From contig NZ_JAGDWX010000018.1 in assembly GCF_023256195.1 (NCBI RefSeq), positions 1-45,030 on the forward strand: a DNA stretch of 45,030 nucleotides, written 5' to 3'. The notes beneath the pieces were generated by a model. It was given only the letters and a program-made list of their open reading frames with translations. It did no database searches and had not been told where the DNA came from. Position 1 is the first letter of the stretch, and every line of letters begins with the position of its first letter. This DNA is from Acidithiobacillus sp. (GTDB lineage Bacteria > Pseudomonadota > Gammaproteobacteria > Acidithiobacillales > Acidithiobacillaceae). Positions 3,099-41,108 of this stretch are shown in pieces. The translations under genes and the position numbers were made by a program.

Positions 3099-3140
3099 CG
3101 TTGCAGCCCATGACCCTTTATCAGACTCTAGGTGGCGGCC

Positions 3141-4175
3141 ATGATTCGTGTGGGGATTGTCGGTGGTACCGGGTATACCGGCGTTGAACTGGTGCGCTTG
3201 CTGGCGGGGCACCCCGAGCTACAGCTGGAGGTCGTTACCTCCCGCACGGAGGCGGGACAATCGCTGGTGGATTTTTTCCCTAATCTGCGCGGCCACACGA
3301 CCTTGCGCTACGAGGCACCGGATCTGGCGCGCCTGCGAGAGCTCGACCTCGTTTTTTTTGCCACACCGCACGGCGTTGCCATGGATATGGCACCAGGTCT
3401 GGTCGCCGCGGGGGTTCGGGTCATCGACCTTGGCGCCGACTTTCGTCTGAAAGATCCAGCCAGCTATGAACACTGGTACGGTCTCGCCCACAGTGCCACG
3501 GATTTGCTGGCCGAGGCCAGCTACGGCCTACCGGAACTCTTTCGGGAGGAAATCCGCGGCAGTCGCCTGGTGGCCAATCCCGGCTGTTATCCCACGGCGG
3601 TGATCCTTGGCCTGCAGCCGCTCTTACAGGCGGGCCTCTTGCACCTGGACAGCCTCATCGCCGACTGTAAATCCGGGGTAAGTGGCGCGGGGCGGACGGC
3701 GCGCCTGGGCCTCATCCTCGCGGAGACCTCGGACAACGTCCAGGCCTATGGCGTCAGCGGCCACCGCCATCGCCCCGAGATCGAGGCGGTGCTCGGCCGC
3801 AGCTGCGGACGGGATCTGGAGCTGCAGTTCAGCCCACACCTCATGCCCATGATCCGCGGCATCCACGCTACCCTCTACGGGCGCCTCAATCGCTCGCTGA
3901 GCGACGCGCAGCTGCAGGAGATCTACGCGCAGCGCTATGCCCATGAGCCTTTTGTGGACGTACTGCCATGGGGCAGCCATCCGGCCACCCGGTCCGTACG
4001 CGGTGCCAATGTCTGTCGGATCGCCGTGCATCAGCCGCGGCCGGGACAGGTCGTCGTGCTCTCGGTGATCGACAATCTGGTCAAAGGCGCTGCCGGCCAG
4101 GCCTTGCAGAATCTGAATCTACTCTTCGGCTTTCCAGAGACCCTGGGTCTGGAGCAGATTGCCCTCTTACCCTGA
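3141..4175 (+). CDS. argC: N-acetyl-gamma-glutamyl-phosphate reductase
   Basis: ArgC makes N-acetyl-glutamate semialdehyde from the acyl phosphate with NADPH, the third step of arginine synthesis in the cytoplasm. The Rossmann motif [10 protein letters not shown] is at residues 5-14 and the catalytic cysteine is C149 in [18 protein letters not shown] and the C-terminal [16 protein letters not shown] are also typical. The 344-residue length matches type-1 ArgC. I prefer the ATG at 3141, with AGGTGG at 3130-3135 as its ribosome binding site, over an in-frame GTG at 3132. It stands alone after the rpsI terminator, with no other arg gene nearby. Confidence 0.97.
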
Positions 4176-4386
4176 AGCCATGGGCCTTGCCGAATAAAGC
4201 GGGCGATAGACTTGATGCCAGTCAGGCGCGGTGCCGCCGGTCCGCGCCCCAAGAAAAGAGCTGGTGCGACAGGATTCTTCAACAGAGTCAGCTTGTTAGA
4301 CGGTCCTTTCAAGAATTGTCGACGTTTTGCTACAACAGCTGCCCGAACGGCTGCCGCAAACCCAGCAAAACCAGACTCAGAGAATA
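4176..4386. other. Non-coding stretch upstream of the lipoprotein gene
   Basis: No coding frame here looks real. The stretch leads into a sigma54-type promoter, so it may hold activator sites. One partial dyad, TGTC at 4317-4320 and TACA at 4331-4334 with 10 nt between, lies about 55 bp before the -24 element; it resembles the TGTC-N10-GACA pattern I recall for E. coli GlrR, with one mismatch. No terminator for argC is evident. Confidence 0.4.
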
Positions 4387-4402
4387 TGGCACGATATGTG
4401 CT
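4387..4402 (+). promoter_or_regulatory. Sigma54 (-24/-12) promoter candidate
   Basis: TGGCACGATATGTGCT matches the sigma54 consensus TGGCACG-N4-TTGCW at every fixed position except one (G for the first T of the -12 box). The spacing GG-N10-GC is exact. The predicted start near 4413 leaves about 27 nt before the ATG at 4440. No convincing sigma70 promoter is visible in the same gap. Confidence 0.65.
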
Positions 4403-4439
4403 TCCAAAAGCTTTCGAGAACTCTGTCGGAGCATGACCT

Positions 4440-4772
4440 ATGAAAGCACACAGACGATATCGGACGGCCGCCTTCGGCCTGATGCTGGGGGGCGCTCTGC
4501 TCGCAGGCGCGTGCAGTCAGACTGTGCAAGCGGACGATTTTTCTTTGGGTGTCGCGATCCCCGGGGCAAGCCTGTACCTGGGTCAGGCTCCACGGTATTA
4601 CTACGCCCCGCCGGTGGTTGTCGCGCCTCCGCCACAGCCCGTGTACTACGTGGCCCCGCCGGCGCCCGGGTACTATGTCGTGCCGGAAGGACGACGCTGG
4701 AAAAGGCACGGTCCGCCACCCTGGGCACGTGGCCATCACGATAGACACTGGGAACACTGGGACGACGATTGA
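4440..4772 (+). CDS. Small exported Tyr/Pro-rich, His-rich (lipo)protein
   Basis: The 110-residue product has an N-terminal export signal: basic MKAHRRYR, a hydrophobic stretch, then LLAGAC, a slightly atypical lipobox with the candidate lipidated cysteine at residue 25. The mature part is dominated by Tyr, Pro and Val (YYYAPPVVVAPPPQPVYYV) and ends in a His/Trp/Asp-rich tail (GHHDRHWEHWDDD). Such low-complexity envelope proteins are common but poorly characterised. The ribosome binding site CGGAG is at 4428-4432. The gene sits behind a strong sigma54-like promoter, suggesting stress-induced expression. The His/Asp tail could bind metal; that is speculation. It could also be a plain periplasmic protein. 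Confidence 0.8.
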   Translation: MKAHRRYRTAAFGLMLGGALLAGACSQTVQADDFSLGVAIPGASLYLGQAPRYYYAPPVVVAPPPQPVYYVAPPAPGYYVVPEGRRWKRHGPPPWARGHHDRHWEHWDDD

Positions 4773-4851
4773 GAGTAACTCAGATGGTCGCAATGGAATC
4801 TTTCCCAGGACCCTGGGTCCATAACTCTACACGGATAAAGAGAGGAACCTT

Positions 4852-5109
4852 ATGACGACTCAAAACCTTGGAACGGTAGCGCGGGCCGGTGTCCTGGCCC
4901 TGGCAGTGATCGGCCTTGCCGGCTGCGCGAACATGAGCCCAACGGGCCAGCGCGCCCTCAGTGGCGGCGCCATCGGTGCCACGGGTGGTGCGGTACTGGG
5001 CGCTGTGGCTGGTGGCAATCCGGCCCTTGGCGCCGCAGTGGGTGGTGCGGTGGGCGCCGGCGTCGGCGCCGCCCTGCCCAGCATCGAAAGAACCCTCAAC
5101 GGCGGCTGA
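4852..5109 (+). CDS. Glycine-zipper lipoprotein
   Basis: This is an 85-residue predicted lipoprotein. The signal peptide ends in a clear lipobox LAGC, with the cysteine at residue 25. The mature part is almost entirely Gly/Ala with GxxxG spacing (GGAIGATGGAVLGAVAGG, then GAAVGGAVGAGVGAAL), a glycine-zipper pattern of membrane-associated helices like those of the OsmB/SlyB-type small outer-membrane lipoproteins. The ribosome binding site AGAGGAA lies just upstream of the ATG. It follows the preceding lipoprotein gene by 79 nt and ends at its own terminator, so the two may be co-expressed. Its role is unknown; envelope integrity or stress is the usual guess. Confidence 0.85.
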   Translation: MTTQNLGTVARAGVLALAVIGLAGCANMSPTGQRALSGGAIGATGGAVLGAVAGGNPALGAAVGGAVGAGVGAALPSIERTLNGG

Positions 5110-5148
5110 GCGGAGCGCGCACTCCTACGGCCTATTTTCGATAGAAGC

Positions 5149-5186
5149 GCCTGGACGTCCACGGAACCGGACGTCCAGGCGTTTTG
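5149..5186 (+). terminator. Intrinsic terminator after the glycine-zipper gene
   Basis: A 13-bp perfect stem (5149-5161 with 5170-5182) with an 8-nt loop is followed by TTTT. It is the longest perfect stem among the terminators in this window. Confidence 0.9.
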
Positions 5187-5279
5187 CCGTTGGACGCCTC
5201 GCCAGTACGCCCGGCGGGCACCCCGGCCCATTTTCCAGTATCCTGAAGGCCCATCGACCCCGTCGGTTGAGGCCTCAGG

Positions 5280-6938
5280 ATGAATCCCGAAACCCTTCTG
5301 ATCCTTTTCGTCTGCGCATCGCTCCTGGCGGTGGTCGCCAATCGGGTGCGCATTCCCTATGTGGTGGCGCTGGTCCTGGGCGGCCTGCTCCTCGGCTCAT
5401 TGAAGCTTTTTCAGGCGCCCGTCCTCAGTCAGGACCTGCTTTTCAACGTGGTTCTGCCGGGCCTGATCTTCGAGTCCGCCTATCATCTGCCAGCGCCCGC
5501 CCTCTGGCGTGACCGCCTCGCCATCTTTGGTCTTGCAGTGCCGGGGGTTCTGCTGTCCATCGTTCTGACCGCCGCGGTCTTCGTCTGGAGCAGTCATTTT
5601 CTCGGCGATCTGGAGGGCGTGGTCATGCCCTTCGGCATCGCTCTGGTATTTGGCGCCATGGTGGCCGCCACCGATCCCATCTCGGTCGTCGCCATCTTCC
5701 GTCAGTTGCAGGCCCCCGCTCGCCTCACCCTGCTTGTGGAAAGCGAGAGCTTGCTCAACGATGGTACTGCCATCGTCTTCTTCACGCTCTTTCTCGGTAT
5801 CGCCACGGGCGCTTCGGCTCACTGGACGACCTTGGCCACGAGCTTTTTTGAGATCGTCGGCGGCGGCATTCTGGTGGGGGGCTTCATCGGCTGGCTGGCG
5901 GCGGAGTGGATCAAGCGGGTGGACGACGCCATGGTGGAGATCACCCTCACCATCCTGGCCGCCTATGGGAGCTTTCTTGCCGCCGATCAGCTGGGCTACT
6001 CCGGCGTCATCAGTACCGTGGTGGCGGGTCTTGTCTGTGGCGCGACGGGTATCCGCCAAGGTATGGCGCCCAGTGTCAGCCTGGCAGTGAATACCTTCTG
6101 GGAGTATCTGGGCTTCGTCCTGAACTCCCTGGTATTCCTCCTGGTGGGCTTTACCATCCACCTGCCGGAGCTGTTCCGGGTCTGGCCCCTGATTCTGGCC
6201 GCCTACGTTGCCATCACCGTCGCCCGTGCCAGCGTGGTCTACGGCGTCGGCGCCCTGCTCAGCAAGACCCGCTCGCACATTCCCTGGATCTGGCACTTCA
6301 TCCTGCTCTGGGGCGGCGTACGCGGGGCTCTGTCCATGGTGCTGGTGCTCAGTTTGCCGCCGCATTTTCCCTATCGCGAGATCCTGGTCAACCTGGTGTT
6401 CGGGGTCGTCCTGCTGACTATCCTCATCCAGGGTCTGACCATGACTCCCATCGCCAGGAGCCTCGGCATCATCGATCCCAGTGATCGCTGGAGCATCCTG
6501 GAGGCCCGCCGCATGCGTCTGCGCCTGGCTCAGAGTACCCTGGACGATCTGGAACGCCTGAGCCGCGAGGAGTTCTATTCCGAGGAGGCCATCGAGCTCA
6601 TCCGCAAGCACTTTACCATGATTCGGGAGGAATCCCGGGCGAGCCTGGGCAGCCTCGACTTTGATCCCGCCAAACGCCTTCAGGGGGATTTCACGCGACT
6701 GTACCAGCGCCTTCTGGCGCGCCAAAAAAAGCGGCTTCTGGACGCCCAGCAGGCGGGCCTCATCAGCCAGCGCACCTTCGATGAACTGCGAGCCGACCTG
6801 GACGCCGAGACCCTGGATCTGGAGTCGCAGCCGCGAAACCTGAGGGAGCGTTGGCTGGAAGAGATCCGTGAGCGCGAGGGAGGTGGCGAGTCGTCCTCTC
6901 ACCCGGCCGCGATCGACAAAGATTCGGCGAGGGAATAA
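5280..6938 (+). CDS. CPA1-family Na+(K+)/H+ antiporter
   Basis: This 552-residue inner-membrane protein belongs to the monovalent cation:proton antiporter-1 family (NhaP/NHE-like). Residues 1 to about 395 form 11-13 membrane spans. The ion-site motifs are visible: ATDPISVVAIFR (the family Thr-Asp-Pro) and ESESLLNDGTAIVFF (the NDG signature). GGVRGALSMVLVLSLP is the late conserved arginine helix. Residues about 400-552 are a soluble, charged helical tail, likely a cytoplasmic regulatory domain. For a possible acidophile it would help pH or cation homeostasis. The ribosome binding site is weak (GAGG at 5269-5272). Sodium versus potassium preference cannot be read from sequence. Confidence 0.93.
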   Translation: MNPETLLILFVCASLLAVVANRVRIPYVVALVLGGLLLGSLKLFQAPVLSQDLLFNVVLPGLIFESAYHLPAPALWRDRLAIFGLAVPGVLLSIVLTAAVFVWSSHFLGDLEGVVMPFGIALVFGAMVAATDPISVVAIFRQLQAPARLTLLVESESLLNDGTAIVFFTLFLGIATGASAHWTTLATSFFEIVGGGILVGGFIGWLAAEWIKRVDDAMVEITLTILAAYGSFLAADQLGYSGVISTVVAGLVCGATGIRQGMAPSVSLAVNTFWEYLGFVLNSLVFLLVGFTIHLPELFRVWPLILAAYVAITVARASVVYGVGALLSKTRSHIPWIWHFILLWGGVRGALSMVLVLSLPPHFPYREILVNLVFGVVLLTILIQGLTMTPIARSLGIIDPSDRWSILEARRMRLRLAQSTLDDLERLSREEFYSEEAIELIRKHFTMIREESRASLGSLDFDPAKRLQGDFTRLYQRLLARQKKRLLDAQQAGLISQRTFDELRADLDAETLDLESQPRNLRERWLEEIREREGGGESSSHPAAIDKDSARE

Positions 6939-28795: not shown

Positions 28796-29026
28796 TTACT
28801 CCGCAGGAGCGGCTTCCTTGGCCTCTTCCTTCTTCTCCATCGCCTTCTTGTGATGGGTGTTCTTGTGGTGATGGTAGGCCTTGTGCTCCATCTTCTTCTC
28901 CGGAGCCTTGTGGGGGGCAGCCATCTCAGAACCCTGCTCAGCGGCGGGGGCGGCAGCCTCGGCAGCGAAAGCGCTGCTGGCGGTGAGGAAAGACAGGGCG
29001 ACGCTCAACGCAATGATCTTCTTCAT
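28796..29026 (-). CDS. Small exported His/Lys-rich protein, acid-shock-protein-like
   Basis: The 76-residue product has a clear Sec signal peptide (MKKIIALSVALSFLTASSAFA, likely cut after AFA). The mature part is very rich in Ala, Lys, His and Glu (KMEHKAYHHHKNTHHKKAM, then KKEEAKEAAPAE). It has no cysteine or predictable fold. Composition and layout resemble enterobacterial Asr, the periplasmic acid-shock protein, but low-complexity similarity proves no homology. The ATG at 29026 follows GGAGAG. A sigma54-like promoter lies about 70 nt upstream and a good terminator downstream, so it is a single-gene unit. Histidine clusters could buffer protons or bind metal; that is inference. Confidence 0.8.
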   Translation of the reverse strand: MKKIIALSVALSFLTASSAFAAEAAAPAAEQGSEMAAPHKAPEKKMEHKAYHHHKNTHHKKAMEKKEEAKEAAPAE

Positions 29027-29436
29027 AAAAAAGCTCTCCAGATAGGTGATGATCCACCGCAGATGCGGGCCGCATGGGCGGCGCAGGTACCAATGCACAA
29101 GCCATGCCAGCACGCTTTATCGCTTTTTATTCAGAGTGTTGCGGGATTTCTGTGGCCCCAGGAACGGCGGCGGCGTCGGTTTTTTGTACTGGGTTCTGCG
29201 TCGAAGCCTTTGGACGCGCTCCCGCAGCCTCACCAGACGCGCTTGGAGTTCGCTCCCCCATCCATCAAAATAGTAATGACAGTCATATAGATGCATTTAT
29301 TGATAGACTTTTCACCCGGAGCTGCTGCGATCCAGCACCGAGCTGTGCATGCGTCACCTTCCGGCGACGCGCACCGCGGCGATCCGTGCAAATCCGCGTC
29401 GTTGCTGCATCGCCTTTGTCGGGAAAGAGGAACAGT
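29027..29436. other. 410-nt gene-poor stretch
   Basis: No convincing gene is seen. It holds the upstream region of the His/Lys-rich gene (minus), including the sigma54-like element at 29094-29109, an unusually AT-rich island at about 29260-29320 with the small dyad ATGACAGTCAT (29275-29285), and the tail downstream of yggX. Frames here are open only because of GC bias and lack start signals. Confidence 0.5.
29094..29109 (-). promoter_or_regulatory. Sigma54 (-24/-12) promoter candidate
   Basis: Read on the minus strand, TGGCATGGCTTGTGCA fits TGGCACG-N4-TTGCW with two mismatches and the exact GG-N10-GC spacing. The -12 half GTGC(A/T) is shared with the element at 4387. The start is predicted near 29083, about 57 nt before the ATG of the His/Lys-rich gene. 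Confidence 0.5.
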
Positions 29437-36833: not shown

Positions 36834-37397
36834 TCAGGCGGCGCGGTGCTTCCGTTGCTGCGCCAGCGTCAGCACCTGTCCACGCGCGGCGTGCCAGCTT
36901 GCCACCGCGAGCCCGCTGTCGGGCAGTCCGGCGCTGTACAGGCGCGTACTGGCTGGCAGATGCCGGACTCGCTGATAGCCCACTTCGTCTCCGCGCCAGC
37001 GACCGTGGCGGTCCCAGACGGCGGTACACAGGCAGTGTCCCGGAGCGTGGACGCCCCAATGGCCATTGCCCAGACGAATGAGCTGCAGTGGTTGCCGACC
37101 CAGGAACAGAGGCCCTATGGCGCTTTGGTCCCAGTTTCCCTCACTGGGCAAGAGCAGGCGGGCATCGGGCAGGAGCAGAGCCAGGCGTTCCGCGGCCTCG
37201 TTGAGATCGGGGTCGCTATGACTGACCAGGATATAGCGCGGCCGCATGTCCGGGTCCTGTTCCAGCAGCTGGTCCAGATCCGCCTCCAAAGCAGCGCTGG
37301 TGAAATCCAGAAGCAGCGCCTCGTGGCTCGCCCCATCCCACAGGGCCTGACGGTACTGGTGGCGCGGTCGCTCTGAGGAAAAAGCTAGTATCTGCAT
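36834..37397 (-). CDS. Unrecognised protein, possibly a degenerate metallo-beta-lactamase fold
   Basis: I do not recognise this 187-residue protein with confidence. It begins MQILAFSSERPRHQYRQALW and has an LLLDF strand, then RYILVSHSDPDLNEAAERLA and later HWGVHAPGHCLCTAVWD. The second and third resemble the HxHxDH and APGHxxG segments of metallo-beta-lactamase proteins in the expected order, but the first keeps only one His (SHSDPD), so a full metal site is unlikely. The ribosome binding site AAGGAG is 6 nt before the ATG. No signal peptide is seen. It converges on recN with a 7-nt gap. ODP-type flavodiiron-like sensors are one alternative. Confidence 0.7.
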   Translation of the reverse strand: MQILAFSSERPRHQYRQALWDGASHEALLLDFTSAALEADLDQLLEQDPDMRPRYILVSHSDPDLNEAAERLALLLPDARLLLPSEGNWDQSAIGPLFLGRQPLQLIRLGNGHWGVHAPGHCLCTAVWDRHGRWRGDEVGYQRVRHLPASTRLYSAGLPDSGLAVASWHAARGQVLTLAQQRKHRAA

Positions 37398-37679
37398 CGT
37401 GACTCCTTCACCGTCGGTTCATTAGAACATGGTATTTTTCTGATTTTATGCAGTTTGCCTAAGCAGAGTCCGTGCCAGCCGAGAAAAAACCTGCTCCAGC
37501 GCGGTAAGTAGTGGCCGCGGCGCGAGCCATCGGTCCCCCGGGAGCGGTCTTTCTGTAGACGAATACCGACGCCCACGGCCACGCCATCGTCATGGACCGG
37601 CCAGACGCTCCCGGACACAGGACTTCCGCTGCCGTAGCGAGATGACTACAGTGGGCGAAAGACTGTCGCTCCCGTACAC
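37398..37679. other. Long upstream region of the kinase operon
   Basis: Beyond the AT-rich first 70 nt next to the divergent gene, this stretch has no gene I can support; a minus-strand open frame (37459-37974) runs through the promoter and lacks start signals. It contains the 8-mer CGCTCCCG three times: inverted at 37539-37546, then direct at 37606-37613 and 37667-37674. These could be activator or IHF-context sites for the sigma54 promoter at 37680. Confidence 0.5.
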
Positions 37680-37694
37680 TGGTGCCTTGCTTGC
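37680..37694 (+). promoter_or_regulatory. Sigma54 (-24/-12) promoter candidate for the qseE-like operon
   Basis: TGGTGC-N5-TTGC has exact GG-N10-GC spacing and a perfect TTGC -12 half; the -24 half has two transitions from TGGCAC. The start is predicted near 37706, about 30 nt before the kinase ATG. The last gene of the operon encodes a sigma54-dependent activator. Confidence 0.5.
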
Positions 37695-37735
37695 CAGAAT
37701 CGAGGGGGCCCCAAAGCACTGCGGGGGTTTCAGTC

Positions 37736-39220
37736 ATGAGCGTAGTCAAAGGATTGGAGACGGAACGGAGCTGGTTTTCCGGCAAACCCGAGGACCGAAG
37801 TCGAGCCGGGTCCATCCCACGGCGGGTACGAGCCGCTGCCATACTCATATTCCTCATGGTGGCATTGCTCGTTGCCCTCGCCCTGCAGGCCATCCACAGC
37901 CTCAGCAGCAGCAGCGATGTATTGCTGGATACGGCACTGCCGGTGCAACGGCAGCTTCTGGAGATCCGTGACACTCAGGGACAGGCCGAATTCTACCGGC
38001 GCCTGGCGGGAGTGCTGCCGCACAGCGGCTATGAGCACACCTTTCACGCCCTGGTGCAGAGGGAACAGCAGGAATTGCAAGCATTGCTGCCCATCGTCCA
38101 GAAAAAGCATCCCGAGCTTGGCAGTCGGGTCCTCGCCCTCAGTCGCGCCCTCACCGAATACGGTCGCGCGGCTATCCAGGCAAACGGTGCGGATGTTGGC
38201 CAGAGAGGCGTGGACGCTGCTCTGGCAGAGCTCCACGGCAGTCTGCAGAAACTCTTTCTCAAGGAGTCACAACAGGCCGCCGAAGCACGGACCCGAGCGG
38301 TCTGGCTGCTCTACCTGCTGGTGGCGGTGACGGCGGCCCTCGCCCTGTGGATTCCCTGGCGGGTCGCGGTGGCGCTGACGCGTCCTCTGGGGGAGATCCG
38401 CCGCGCTCTGGAAGATCTCGGCGCAGGGCGGGCAACGCGGTTGATACGGGAGGGTCCCCAGGAGATCCGCGATCTGGCGGCGAGCATCGAGACCATGCAG
38501 AGCCGCCTGCGTGAGGAGGAGCGCCTGCGCCACGTCTTTCTGAGCCAGGTGTCGCACGAACTGAAAACCCCACTGGCCTCGGCCCGCTCTGGCGCCGAGC
38601 TGATGCTCAGCGAGCGCCTGGGCAAGCTCTCGCAGGCCCAGCGCGAGGTGTTGGAGATCATCTCCCGCCAGGTCCAGGAGCTCTACGTCGCCATCCAGGA
38701 GATGCTGGACATGCACGCGCTGCAGGCGCAGAGTCTGGAGTATTCGCTGACGGACCTGCCCCTGTCGGCGCAGTTGCAGGAGTTGCGTGGCCGGATGCAG
38801 CCCCTGCTGGACCGTCGCCAGCAGACCTTGGAGATCGCGGTGGACGAGGGACTCCAGGTGCGCGCCGATCCCAAGCGTCTGCTCCAGATCCTCAGTAATC
38901 TGGTGAGCAATGCCCACAAATATAGCGTCGCCGGCGATACCATCCGCGTCGCCGCACAGGCGGAGGGCGGCGGAGTGCGGATTCAGGTTCGCGACCACGG
39001 GCCGGGCATACCCGAGGCACTCCTGGGCCGCGTTTTCGAACGCTTCTTTCAGGTCTCTGCCAGCAGCAACCTGCCACGCGGAACGGGTCTCGGTCTGGCC
39101 ATCGCCCGCGAACTCGTACTGGCCCAGCACGGCGAGATCCGCGTGCGCAATCATCCACAAGGGGGTCTCAGCGCCGAGGTCTGGCTCCCCTGTCCACCCC
39201 CCAGAGAGTCGCGCCCATGA
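37736..39220 (+). CDS. Sensor histidine kinase, QseE/GlrK-like
   Basis: This 494-residue inner-membrane kinase has spans at about residues 33-53 and 189-208 enclosing a 135-residue helical periplasmic sensor. A HAMP linker (RPLGEIRRALEDLGAG) follows, then a HisKA domain with the phospho-acceptor H274 in SQVSHELKTPLASARSG. The ATPase domain has SNLVSNAHKYSVAG, RDHGPGIPEALLGRVFERFF and GTGLGLAIAREL. The start at 37736 is preferred to the longer GTG frame at 37682, which would lie inside the sigma54 promoter. It overlaps the lipoprotein gene by ATGA. The kinase-lipoprotein-activator order is that of qseE-qseG-qseF in E. coli. Confidence 0.92.
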   Translation: MSVVKGLETERSWFSGKPEDRSRAGSIPRRVRAAAILIFLMVALLVALALQAIHSLSSSSDVLLDTALPVQRQLLEIRDTQGQAEFYRRLAGVLPHSGYEHTFHALVQREQQELQALLPIVQKKHPELGSRVLALSRALTEYGRAAIQANGADVGQRGVDAALAELHGSLQKLFLKESQQAAEARTRAVWLLYLLVAVTAALALWIPWRVAVALTRPLGEIRRALEDLGAGRATRLIREGPQEIRDLAASIETMQSRLREEERLRHVFLSQVSHELKTPLASARSGAELMLSERLGKLSQAQREVLEIISRQVQELYVAIQEMLDMHALQAQSLEYSLTDLPLSAQLQELRGRMQPLLDRRQQTLEIAVDEGLQVRADPKRLLQILSNLVSNAHKYSVAGDTIRVAAQAEGGGVRIQVRDHGPGIPEALLGRVFERFFQVSASSNLPRGTGLGLAIARELVLAQHGEIRVRNHPQGGLSAEVWLPCPPPRESRP

Positions 39221-39711
39221 ACCTTCGCACACCCTTTCTGCTCATGGCCCTGCCGACCCTCGCTGCCTGCGCCCAGATACTGCCGTCGGCACAACCTGCC
39301 CCCAACTCCAGTCGGGCGCAGCTGTTGGCAGACCTTGGCCACTGCGGCGCAGCCGACGGCGTCGACTGCGCCCGCATCCATCTCGCTCTCGCCCGCAGCT
39401 ATCTGCAGCAGACGCCACTGAACCGTACCAGTGTCGACAATGCCGGTCGGGAACTGCAGCTGGCCGCCCAGAACCCCAGCGTCGCCGCAGAGATTCGGCC
39501 ATGGCAGAACCTGGTGGCCTACAGCCGCTCGCAGCAGCACGGCCTTTCCTGTCCACCGGCGGAGGCGACCAGAAGCCCGCGTGCCGCTGCTCCCGCTACC
39601 ACCCCCGCCCGATCCGCGGCGGAAGAATCGGCGGCGCAGCGCCTGCAGCGCCTGGAGCAGCTCCTACATCAACAGGCGCAGGAAAGTCTTAGCAGCAAGG
39701 CCCCGCAATGA
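39217..39711 (+). CDS. QseG-like lipoprotein
   Basis: The 164-residue protein has a signal peptide with lipobox LAAC (Cys 18). A helical middle follows (ADGVDCARIHLALARSYLQQ, then NAGRELQLAAQNP), then a Pro/Ala-rich linker and a final coiled-coil-like helix (RLQRLEQLLHQQAQESL). Sequence similarity to E. coli QseG/YfhG is weak by eye; the assignment rests on position between the kinase and the sigma54 activator, with ATGA overlaps at both ends. In E. coli, QseG is an outer-membrane lipoprotein that contacts the kinase QseE and controls its activity, so a similar sensor-partner role is plausible here. Confidence 0.8.
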   Translation: MNLRTPFLLMALPTLAACAQILPSAQPAPNSSRAQLLADLGHCGAADGVDCARIHLALARSYLQQTPLNRTSVDNAGRELQLAAQNPSVAAEIRPWQNLVAYSRSQQHGLSCPPAEATRSPRAAAPATTPARSAAEESAAQRLQRLEQLLHQQAQESLSSKAPQ

Positions 39712-41108
39712 CTCAGAAATCCCTCGGCATAGACCCCGCGCACATCTGCATCATCGACGACGACCCCGACTTCCTGCGGCTTCTGGGCCTATGGCTCGAG
39801 AGCGAGGGACACCAGGTGCAGGCCTTCAGCGCGCCGATGCAGGCCGTAAAGGCCCTGGAGCGGGAGACCCCGGATCTGGTCATCACCGATCTGCGTATGC
39901 CCGAGATGGACGGCATGGAAGTTCTCGAAGCGGTGCAGGAGCTGGATCCCGATTTGCCGGTGATCATCCTCACCGCCCACGGCAGCATCCCCAATGCCGT
40001 GGCTGCCATGCGCGCACAGGCCTTCGGCTATCTGGGCAAGCCCTTCAGCAGTGAGGAGCTGGAATCCCTGGTCGCCGCCGCCTTGCGGCAACGCCAGGCG
40101 AGCCGCGAGACTGGCCGACTGCGGGCCACGCTGAAGGATCTGGCCGGGCAGATGATCCTGCACCGCAGCCCGGTCATGGCCAAGCTCGTGGACGAACTGA
40201 CCCGCGTCGCCCACTCGCAGGCCAGCGTCTTCCTCACCGGCGAGAGCGGTTCGGGCAAGGAGCGGGTAGCACGCGCCATCCACGCCGCCAGTCCCCGCGC
40301 CCAGGGGCCCTTCATTGCCGTCAATTGTGGCGCCATCGTCGCCGACCTCGCCGAAAGCGAACTCTTCGGTCACGTCAAGGGGGCCTTCACCGGCGCCAGC
40401 CAGGACCATCTCGGCCTCATTCGCGCCGCCGATGGTGGCACGCTCTTTCTCGACGAGATTGCTGATCTTCCCCTCAATCTGCAGGTCAAGCTCCTGCGCG
40501 TCCTGCAGGAGGGTACCCTGCGGCCTGTGGGTTCCCGGGAGGAGTATCGCGTGGATATCCGCGTCATCAGCGCTACCCACCAAGACATCTACGCACTGAC
40601 GGCCAGCGGCGCCTTTCGTGAGGATCTTTATTATCGTCTGCACGTCATCCCGCTGCGGGTACCGAGCCTGGCCGAGCGACCCGAGGACATCCTCCTGCTG
40701 GCCCAGCATTTTCTCGACCGGGAGATTGCCCGCCTGGGCCGCCCCATCCAAGGCTTCAGCCCTGAGGCCCTGGACAAGCTGATCTGTCGGCCCTGGCCAG
40801 GCAACGTCCGCGAGCTGGAGAACGTGGTCACCCTGGCAGCTGCCTTGACAGAAAAAGGCTGGGTCGCGGCCGAGGCCATCCCCGACGCCAGTCGTACCGG
40901 CGGCCGCAGCGCCTTCCCACCGCTGCAGGACGCCAAGGCAGCCTTCGAGCGCAGCTACCTGGAGAACCTGCTGCGGGCGACGGACGGCAACATCTCCCGC
41001 GCTGCGCGGATTGCCGGCCGCCACCGTACGGATCTCTATAAACTGATGCGCAAGCACGAACTCACGCCTCAAGAGTTCAAGAGCCAGGGCGACGAAGACG
41101 ATCTGTGA
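39708..41108 (+). CDS. Sigma54-dependent response regulator, QseF/GlrR-like
   Basis: This 466-residue NtrC-family activator has three domains. The receiver (residues 11-125) has phospho-acceptor D61 in DLVITDLRMPEMDG. The AAA+ domain has Walker A GESGSGKE at 178-185, the sigma54-contact loop GAFTGA at 225-230, Walker B GGTLFLDEIADL, and RPWPGNVRELENVV. The C-terminal Fis-type helix-turn-helix is DGNISRAARIAGRHRTDLYK. The GAFTGA loop is intact, so it should drive sigma54 promoters; candidates lie at 4387, 29094-29109 and 37680. In E. coli, GlrR activates glmY and rpoE. Confidence 0.95.
   Translation: MTQKSLGIDPAHICIIDDDPDFLRLLGLWLESEGHQVQAFSAPMQAVKALERETPDLVITDLRMPEMDGMEVLEAVQELDPDLPVIILTAHGSIPNAVAAMRAQAFGYLGKPFSSEELESLVAAALRQRQASRETGRLRATLKDLAGQMILHRSPVMAKLVDELTRVAHSQASVFLTGESGSGKERVARAIHAASPRAQGPFIAVNCGAIVADLAESELFGHVKGAFTGASQDHLGLIRAADGGTLFLDEIADLPLNLQVKLLRVLQEGTLRPVGSREEYRVDIRVISATHQDIYALTASGAFREDLYYRLHVIPLRVPSLAERPEDILLLAQHFLDREIARLGRPIQGFSPEALDKLICRPWPGNVRELENVVTLAAALTEKGWVAAEAIPDASRTGGRSAFPPLQDAKAAFERSYLENLLRATDGNISRAARIAGRHRTDLYKLMRKHELTPQEFKSQGDEDDL

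Follow-up and report, generated by a model that had tools for sequence, protein, structure and literature searches.

In Escherichia coli, the two-component system QseE/QseG/QseF (GlrK/QseG/GlrR) is encoded by an operon for a kinase, a lipoprotein and a sigma54 activator, and its target is the small RNA gene glmY. The binding site of QseF/GlrR has been published as TGTN12ACA (PMC6075780), and the QseF consensus also as TGTCN10GACA (PMC8745638); three such sites, TGTCTGTAAATCACGACA, TGTCGCTTTCTGGCGACA and TGTCTCTTTTTAGCGACA, lie upstream of E. coli glmY. For Acidithiobacillia, both a GlrR/GlrK and a GlrR_2/QseE system were predicted in a 2025 survey (PMC12194929). In the portions of the survey considered here, the circuits presented are those of HupR, NtrC, NtrX and TspR, and neither targets nor a binding site were found for either GlrR system. 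It is a general theme that sigma54 genes act in the envelope or bacterial exterior (PMC3162934), and that account, in the part considered, concerns the biosynthesis of exterior components broadly, not a regulon of the type described below. Little was found in the literature on targets of GlrR/QseF-type systems outside Enterobacteriaceae, and no description of a GlrR-type envelope regulon in Acidithiobacillaceae was found in the open-access literature.

The locus examined here lies in a 45,030-nucleotide stretch of Acidithiobacillus sp. DNA, hereafter the window (Table 1). It resembles the E. coli system in its kinase-lipoprotein-sigma54 activator operon, in a TGT-N12-ACA site placed before a near-consensus sigma54 promoter, and in the envelope theme of its output. 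Based on sequence comparisons, we propose that the promoter upstream of a gene for a 110-aa Tyr/Pro/His-rich protein (YYAPP protein) is a sigma54 promoter which would be activated through the upstream dyad by a GlrR/QseF-type protein, most likely GlrR_2, as part of an envelope regulon. We estimate the probability of this reading as a whole at about 0.72.

Table 1. Positions of the promoter elements, upstream dyads (UAS) and genes of the window that are discussed in the text.
Feature	Position	Strand	Basis or remark
UAS TGTCGACGTTTTGCTACA, TGT-N12-ACA dyad	4317-4334	+	Sequence, family-wide position and form, QseF/GlrR consensus
Sigma54 -24/-12 promoter TGGCACGATATGTGCT (YYAPP promoter)	4387-4402	+	Sequence, score, conserved upstream of orthologues
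110-aa Tyr/Pro/His-rich secreted protein (YYAPP protein)	4440-4772	+	Predicted signal peptide, cleavage between VQA and DD
85-aa glycine-zipper lipoprotein	4852-5109	+	Lipobox LAGC; Pfam Gly-zipper_YMGG, E=1.6e-6
76-aa Lys/His-rich secreted protein	28796-29026	-	Behind the 29094-29109 promoter
Sigma54 promoter TGGCATGGCTTGTGCA	29094-29109	-	Conserved ahead of the start codon in family genomes
187-aa protein	36834-37397	-	Divergent from the kinase operon, behind the 37462-37477 promoter
Sigma54 promoter TGGCACGGACTCTGCT of the 187-aa gene	37462-37477	-	Score 9.3
UAS CGTCGGTATTCGTCTACA	37554-37571	-	94 bp ahead of the 37462-37477 promoter
Second UAS copy TGTAGTCATCTCGCTACG	37633-37650		Further copy of the dyad
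GlrK/QseE-like histidine kinase	37682-39220	+	Pfam (HAMP, HisKA, HATPase)
164-aa lipoprotein in QseG position	39217-39711	+	Position and lipobox LAAC
GlrR_2, sigma54 enhancer-binding protein	39708-41108	+	Pfam (receiver, AAA+, Fis-type HTH)

The YYAPP promoter occupies part of the 264 bp that separate argC (3132-4175) from the 110-aa ORF. It reads T-GG-CACGATATGT-GC-T with ten bases between GG and GC, as the initial annotation had described, and TGGCACGATATGTGCT fits the TGGCACG-N4-TTGCW context, scoring 9.3 on a -24/-12 consensus scale for which we chose the weights (maximum 9.9). Since the GC ends at 4401 and the ATG is at 4440, a transcription start 11-13 nt past the GC would leave a leader of ca. 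26-28 nt, in agreement with the ca. 27 nt that had been claimed. Only this site and the minus-strand site at 37462-37477 reached at least 9.3 in the window, as against 0.095 expected per 45 kb from shuffled windows, and shuffling of the 264-bp intergenic region produced such a score in 2 of 20,000 shuffles. When two mismatches were allowed, on the other hand, seven motifs were present and 7.3 were expected by shuffling. The loose motif is at chance level, and it is the near-perfect match alone that is unusual. Genome-wide, 15 strict TGGCAYGNNNNNTGCW sites were counted in 1.98 Mb, three of them inside the window; among the others, four fall within long ORFs and look like chance occurrences. The genome encodes both enhancer-binding proteins and rpoN, the latter on the same contig 11.5 kb past the end of the window, and the earlier suggestion of a putative promoter dependent on an enhancer-binding protein is supported.

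Relatives of the 110-aa protein were found in 24 of the 40 genomes searched, every one within the family. In the 200 bp upstream of the 21 loci treated as orthologous, which share ancestry and do not represent 21 independent events, a site of at least 7.95 was present in 21/21 and of at least 8.4 in 19/21, whereas control windows from the same loci (n=762) contained such sites in 3.4% and 2.4% of cases, respectively. Conservation of the element before the orthologous genes had been put forward as a check, and these are the counts it returned. Between genera, the surrounding sequence, the leader and the neighbours of the promoter all differ. The element was confirmed, by this comparison, as a real sigma54-type promoter element, for which conservation is stronger evidence than score. 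It is very improbable that the site is a chance resemblance and the gene is expressed from an unrecognised sigma70-type promoter: loose motif matches are indeed common in this G+C-rich window, but the site is found in every orthologue, it co-occurs with a helically phased dyad (see below), and, as previously claimed, no sigma70 site was found in a scan of 4100-5300.

The first gene behind the promoter had been annotated as a tiny Tyr/Pro/His-rich lipoprotein. Its size and composition were borne out, but its assignment as a lipoprotein was rejected because the sister species has no Cys25 (LATVASQSARADD versus LLAGACSQTVQADD), the other orthologues either lack this Cys or have one at a different place, and the signal-peptidase-I site (AxA followed by DD) is conserved. 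The YYAPP protein, for which neither Pfam nor NCBIfam gave a match, is most likely exported to the periplasm or beyond. The lipoprotein is the product of the next gene; its Gly-zipper_YMGG match falls slightly below the curated cut-off. The two genes are separated by a 79-bp gap in which no plus-strand terminator was found, their pairing is kept in relatives, and they are probably co-transcribed.

The upstream dyad starts 70 bp ahead of the -24 element and ends 52 bp ahead of the promoter. The initial annotation had noted a half-matching TGTC-N10-TACA dyad ca. 55 bp upstream; a dyad is present there and forms part of the switch, but it is a full TGT-N12-ACA instead. It resembles the E. coli glmY sites, for example TGTCGCTTTCTGGCGACA. 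Relatives carry TGTCGACGTTTGGCGACA, TGTAGCCATTTCCCTACA and similar sequences at the equivalent place, and the forms in the family vary from TGTCG..CGACA to TGTAG..CTACA. The family genomes were searched with a composite pattern consisting of the dyad and the promoter with 38-66 free bases between them, and the reversed pattern was used as a control. The composite matched 51 times, in 22 of 25 family genomes, as compared to three matches of the reversed control, and the sole match in the source genome was the site at 4317-4402. Measured from the start of the dyad, the promoter lay at distances of 58-62, 68-71 and 80-83 bp only. The 11-bp periodicity of these spacings, which was not built into the search, had a p value of ca. 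5e-5 when orthologues were collapsed to 23 groups, and such spacing classes are expected if an activator loops to the polymerase on one face of the helix. Outside the family, the composite was at background level, with matches in 6 of 229 genomes of the class, the source genome included, against five control matches. Within the reach of this pattern, the arrangement appears to be specific to the family.

These observations bear on the kind of activator involved. The genome encodes ca. nine enhancer-binding proteins, of which two are GlrR-type and seven have other full sigma54-activator domains; together with the variation of the UAS, this leaves several candidates. An activator unrelated to GlrR, such as NtrC, NtrX, TspR, PilR or an orphan, could draw on these seven, but it is unlikely to act at the YYAPP promoter, since the dyad has the form and spacing of GlrR/QseF sites and the strict sigma54 sites before one c-type cytochrome gene and one pilin gene in the same genome are without such a dyad. 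Control by a GlrR-type protein is quite probable.

Two GlrR-type systems are encoded in the source genome. The operon of GlrR_2 lies 33 kb from the YYAPP promoter. Its kinase shares 32% identity with E. coli GlrK across 273 aa, and 24/25 family genomes each contain one strong match to it. Its 164-aa lipoprotein gave no significant BLASTP match to E. coli QseG (E 4.5) and no Pfam match. The best NCBIfam family of GlrR_2 itself is GlrR (498 bits), although the 763-bit equivalog cut-off was missed. The second system, with matching three-gene order, is elsewhere in the genome (G000:C9), with GlrR at G000:C9:35408-36766. Both systems were found throughout the family, the few absences corresponding to less complete assemblies, and in a tree GlrR and GlrR_2 formed two clades which grouped with E. 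coli GlrR apart from the other activators included.

It is possible, though less likely than not, that the activator at the YYAPP promoter is GlrR and not GlrR_2. Of the two, GlrR has more in common with E. coli GlrR (58% identity versus 49% for GlrR_2), with a nearly identical recognition helix (RNRTEFYRLL). In genus g4, the UAS of the YYAPP gene is TGTCGAC..GCGACA, which is like the E. coli sites and closer to the GlrR type, and the site beside the glrK_2 operon differs from it; these g4 sites point away from GlrR_2. In several g4 genomes, glrR is also located ca. 16 kb from the YYAPP gene. Against GlrR, the half-sites TGTAG/CGACA in the source genus are the same beside glrK_2 as at the YYAPP site, and the g2 form TGTAGCC..CTACA matches the sites upstream of glrK_2, whereas the Lys/His-rich genes, neighbours of glrR in g2 and g3, have sites of the form GTCG..GAC nearby. 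The shared half-sites weakly favour GlrR_2. In many relatives, the same dyad is found next to the glrK_2 operon; in g1 and g4, it precedes a divergent, conserved sigma54 promoter by 70-94 bp. On balance, GlrR_2 specifically may be the activator, with chances slightly short of even.

Based on these results, the following mechanism is hypothesised, in which we infer the sigma54 transcription itself, the GlrR that binds, the signal and the function of the 110-aa protein. Sigma54-RNA polymerase would be held as a closed complex at the YYAPP promoter. Upon envelope disturbance, GlrR_2, as the most likely activator, would be turned on by its kinase and the QseG-like lipoprotein; the phosphorylated protein would occupy the dyad on the appropriate helix face, loop over to the polymerase and open the complex, driving the operon for the small secreted protein and the glycine-zipper lipoprotein, which would be placed in the outer membrane. 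GlrR may act instead of or alongside GlrR_2.

Other sigma54 promoters in the window were also considered. The initial annotation had tentatively grouped the YYAPP promoter with sites at 29094-29109 and 37680 into a small envelope regulon. The former site is real and conserved, since 23/23 family upstream regions examined have a promoter of this type 81-90 bp ahead of the ATG, and its membership in such a regulon is supported. The site at 37680 on the plus strand was rejected as a promoter, being weak (6.75 when scored by hand) and not conserved, and no plus-strand site of at least 7.4 was found around this position in the window or in any relative. The real promoter nearby is the one on the minus strand at 37462-37477, which is conserved in the sister species and in genus g4 and precedes the gene of the 187-aa protein, for which no Pfam or NCBIfam match was found. 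In g2 and g3 genomes, the Lys/His-rich gene immediately precedes the glrK-glrR operon of the second system. A GlmY-like RNA at that place was considered and rejected, as the sigma54-driven unit encodes the Lys/His-rich protein; in the window, an Rfam search matched a tRNA only and no GlmY-like RNA was found.

Across the family, small secreted proteins and glycine-zipper lipoproteins make up most of the composite targets. Besides YYAPP orthologues and paralogues, there are glycine-zipper lipoproteins of three kinds and other Pro/Tyr-rich secreted proteins; the further targets are an MdoG-like protein, a basic protein of 65-72 aa and a small regulator of the ArsR type. Unrelated glycine-zipper lipoprotein genes elsewhere have their own composite element, and this separate copy of the switch links the YYAPP and lipoprotein gene types. 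The target list points to an uncharacterised family-wide envelope regulon under a putative GlrR/QseF-type two-component system. In E. coli, the target is the small RNA glmY, with three sites farther out. In the present case, a single UAS lies near the promoter, and the predicted output consists of glycine-zipper lipoproteins and small secreted proteins, with mdoG as a probable further target. The family also differs in having two paralogous systems and a QseG-like protein without recognisable QseG sequence. We consider it an even chance that, in Acidithiobacillaceae, the QseEGF-type envelope sensor has been duplicated and, in place of glmY, directly activates a set of targets peculiar to the family: tiny secreted proteins of low complexity, glycine-zipper lipoproteins and, probably, the synthesis of periplasmic glucans. 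This would amount to a response to envelope stress, possibly caused by acid or metals, in which each paralogue has its own, slightly different dialect of the site.

Two GlrR systems had already been predicted in Acidithiobacillia; the proposed QseF/GlrR-type sigma54 circuit with envelope-protein output is new as far as the open-access literature searched shows. For bioleaching acidophiles, this study contributes a candidate binding site together with a spacing rule and a set of candidate targets, some of which are envelope proteins without a known family. An ancestral or parallel role of the GlrR/QseF circuit in controlling envelope proteins directly is suggested by these results.

Several individual loci were observed alongside these searches. 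A conserved 65-72-aa basic protein (LLAALRRVR..HSFMA..) is encoded behind a sigma54 site and a dyad at L208, L045, L068 and L182; no Pfam family was found for the L208 protein. In the source genome, a strict sigma54 site lies 12 bp before an MdoG/OpgG gene (L215, G000:C32:68803; Pfam E 4.7e-161), and a homologue in another genome (L047) has the full composite of UAS and sigma54 promoter. Strict sigma54 sites accompanied by GlrR-like dyads were seen at L213 and L217, where the products are a second Lys/His-rich secreted protein and a regulator of the ArsR type.
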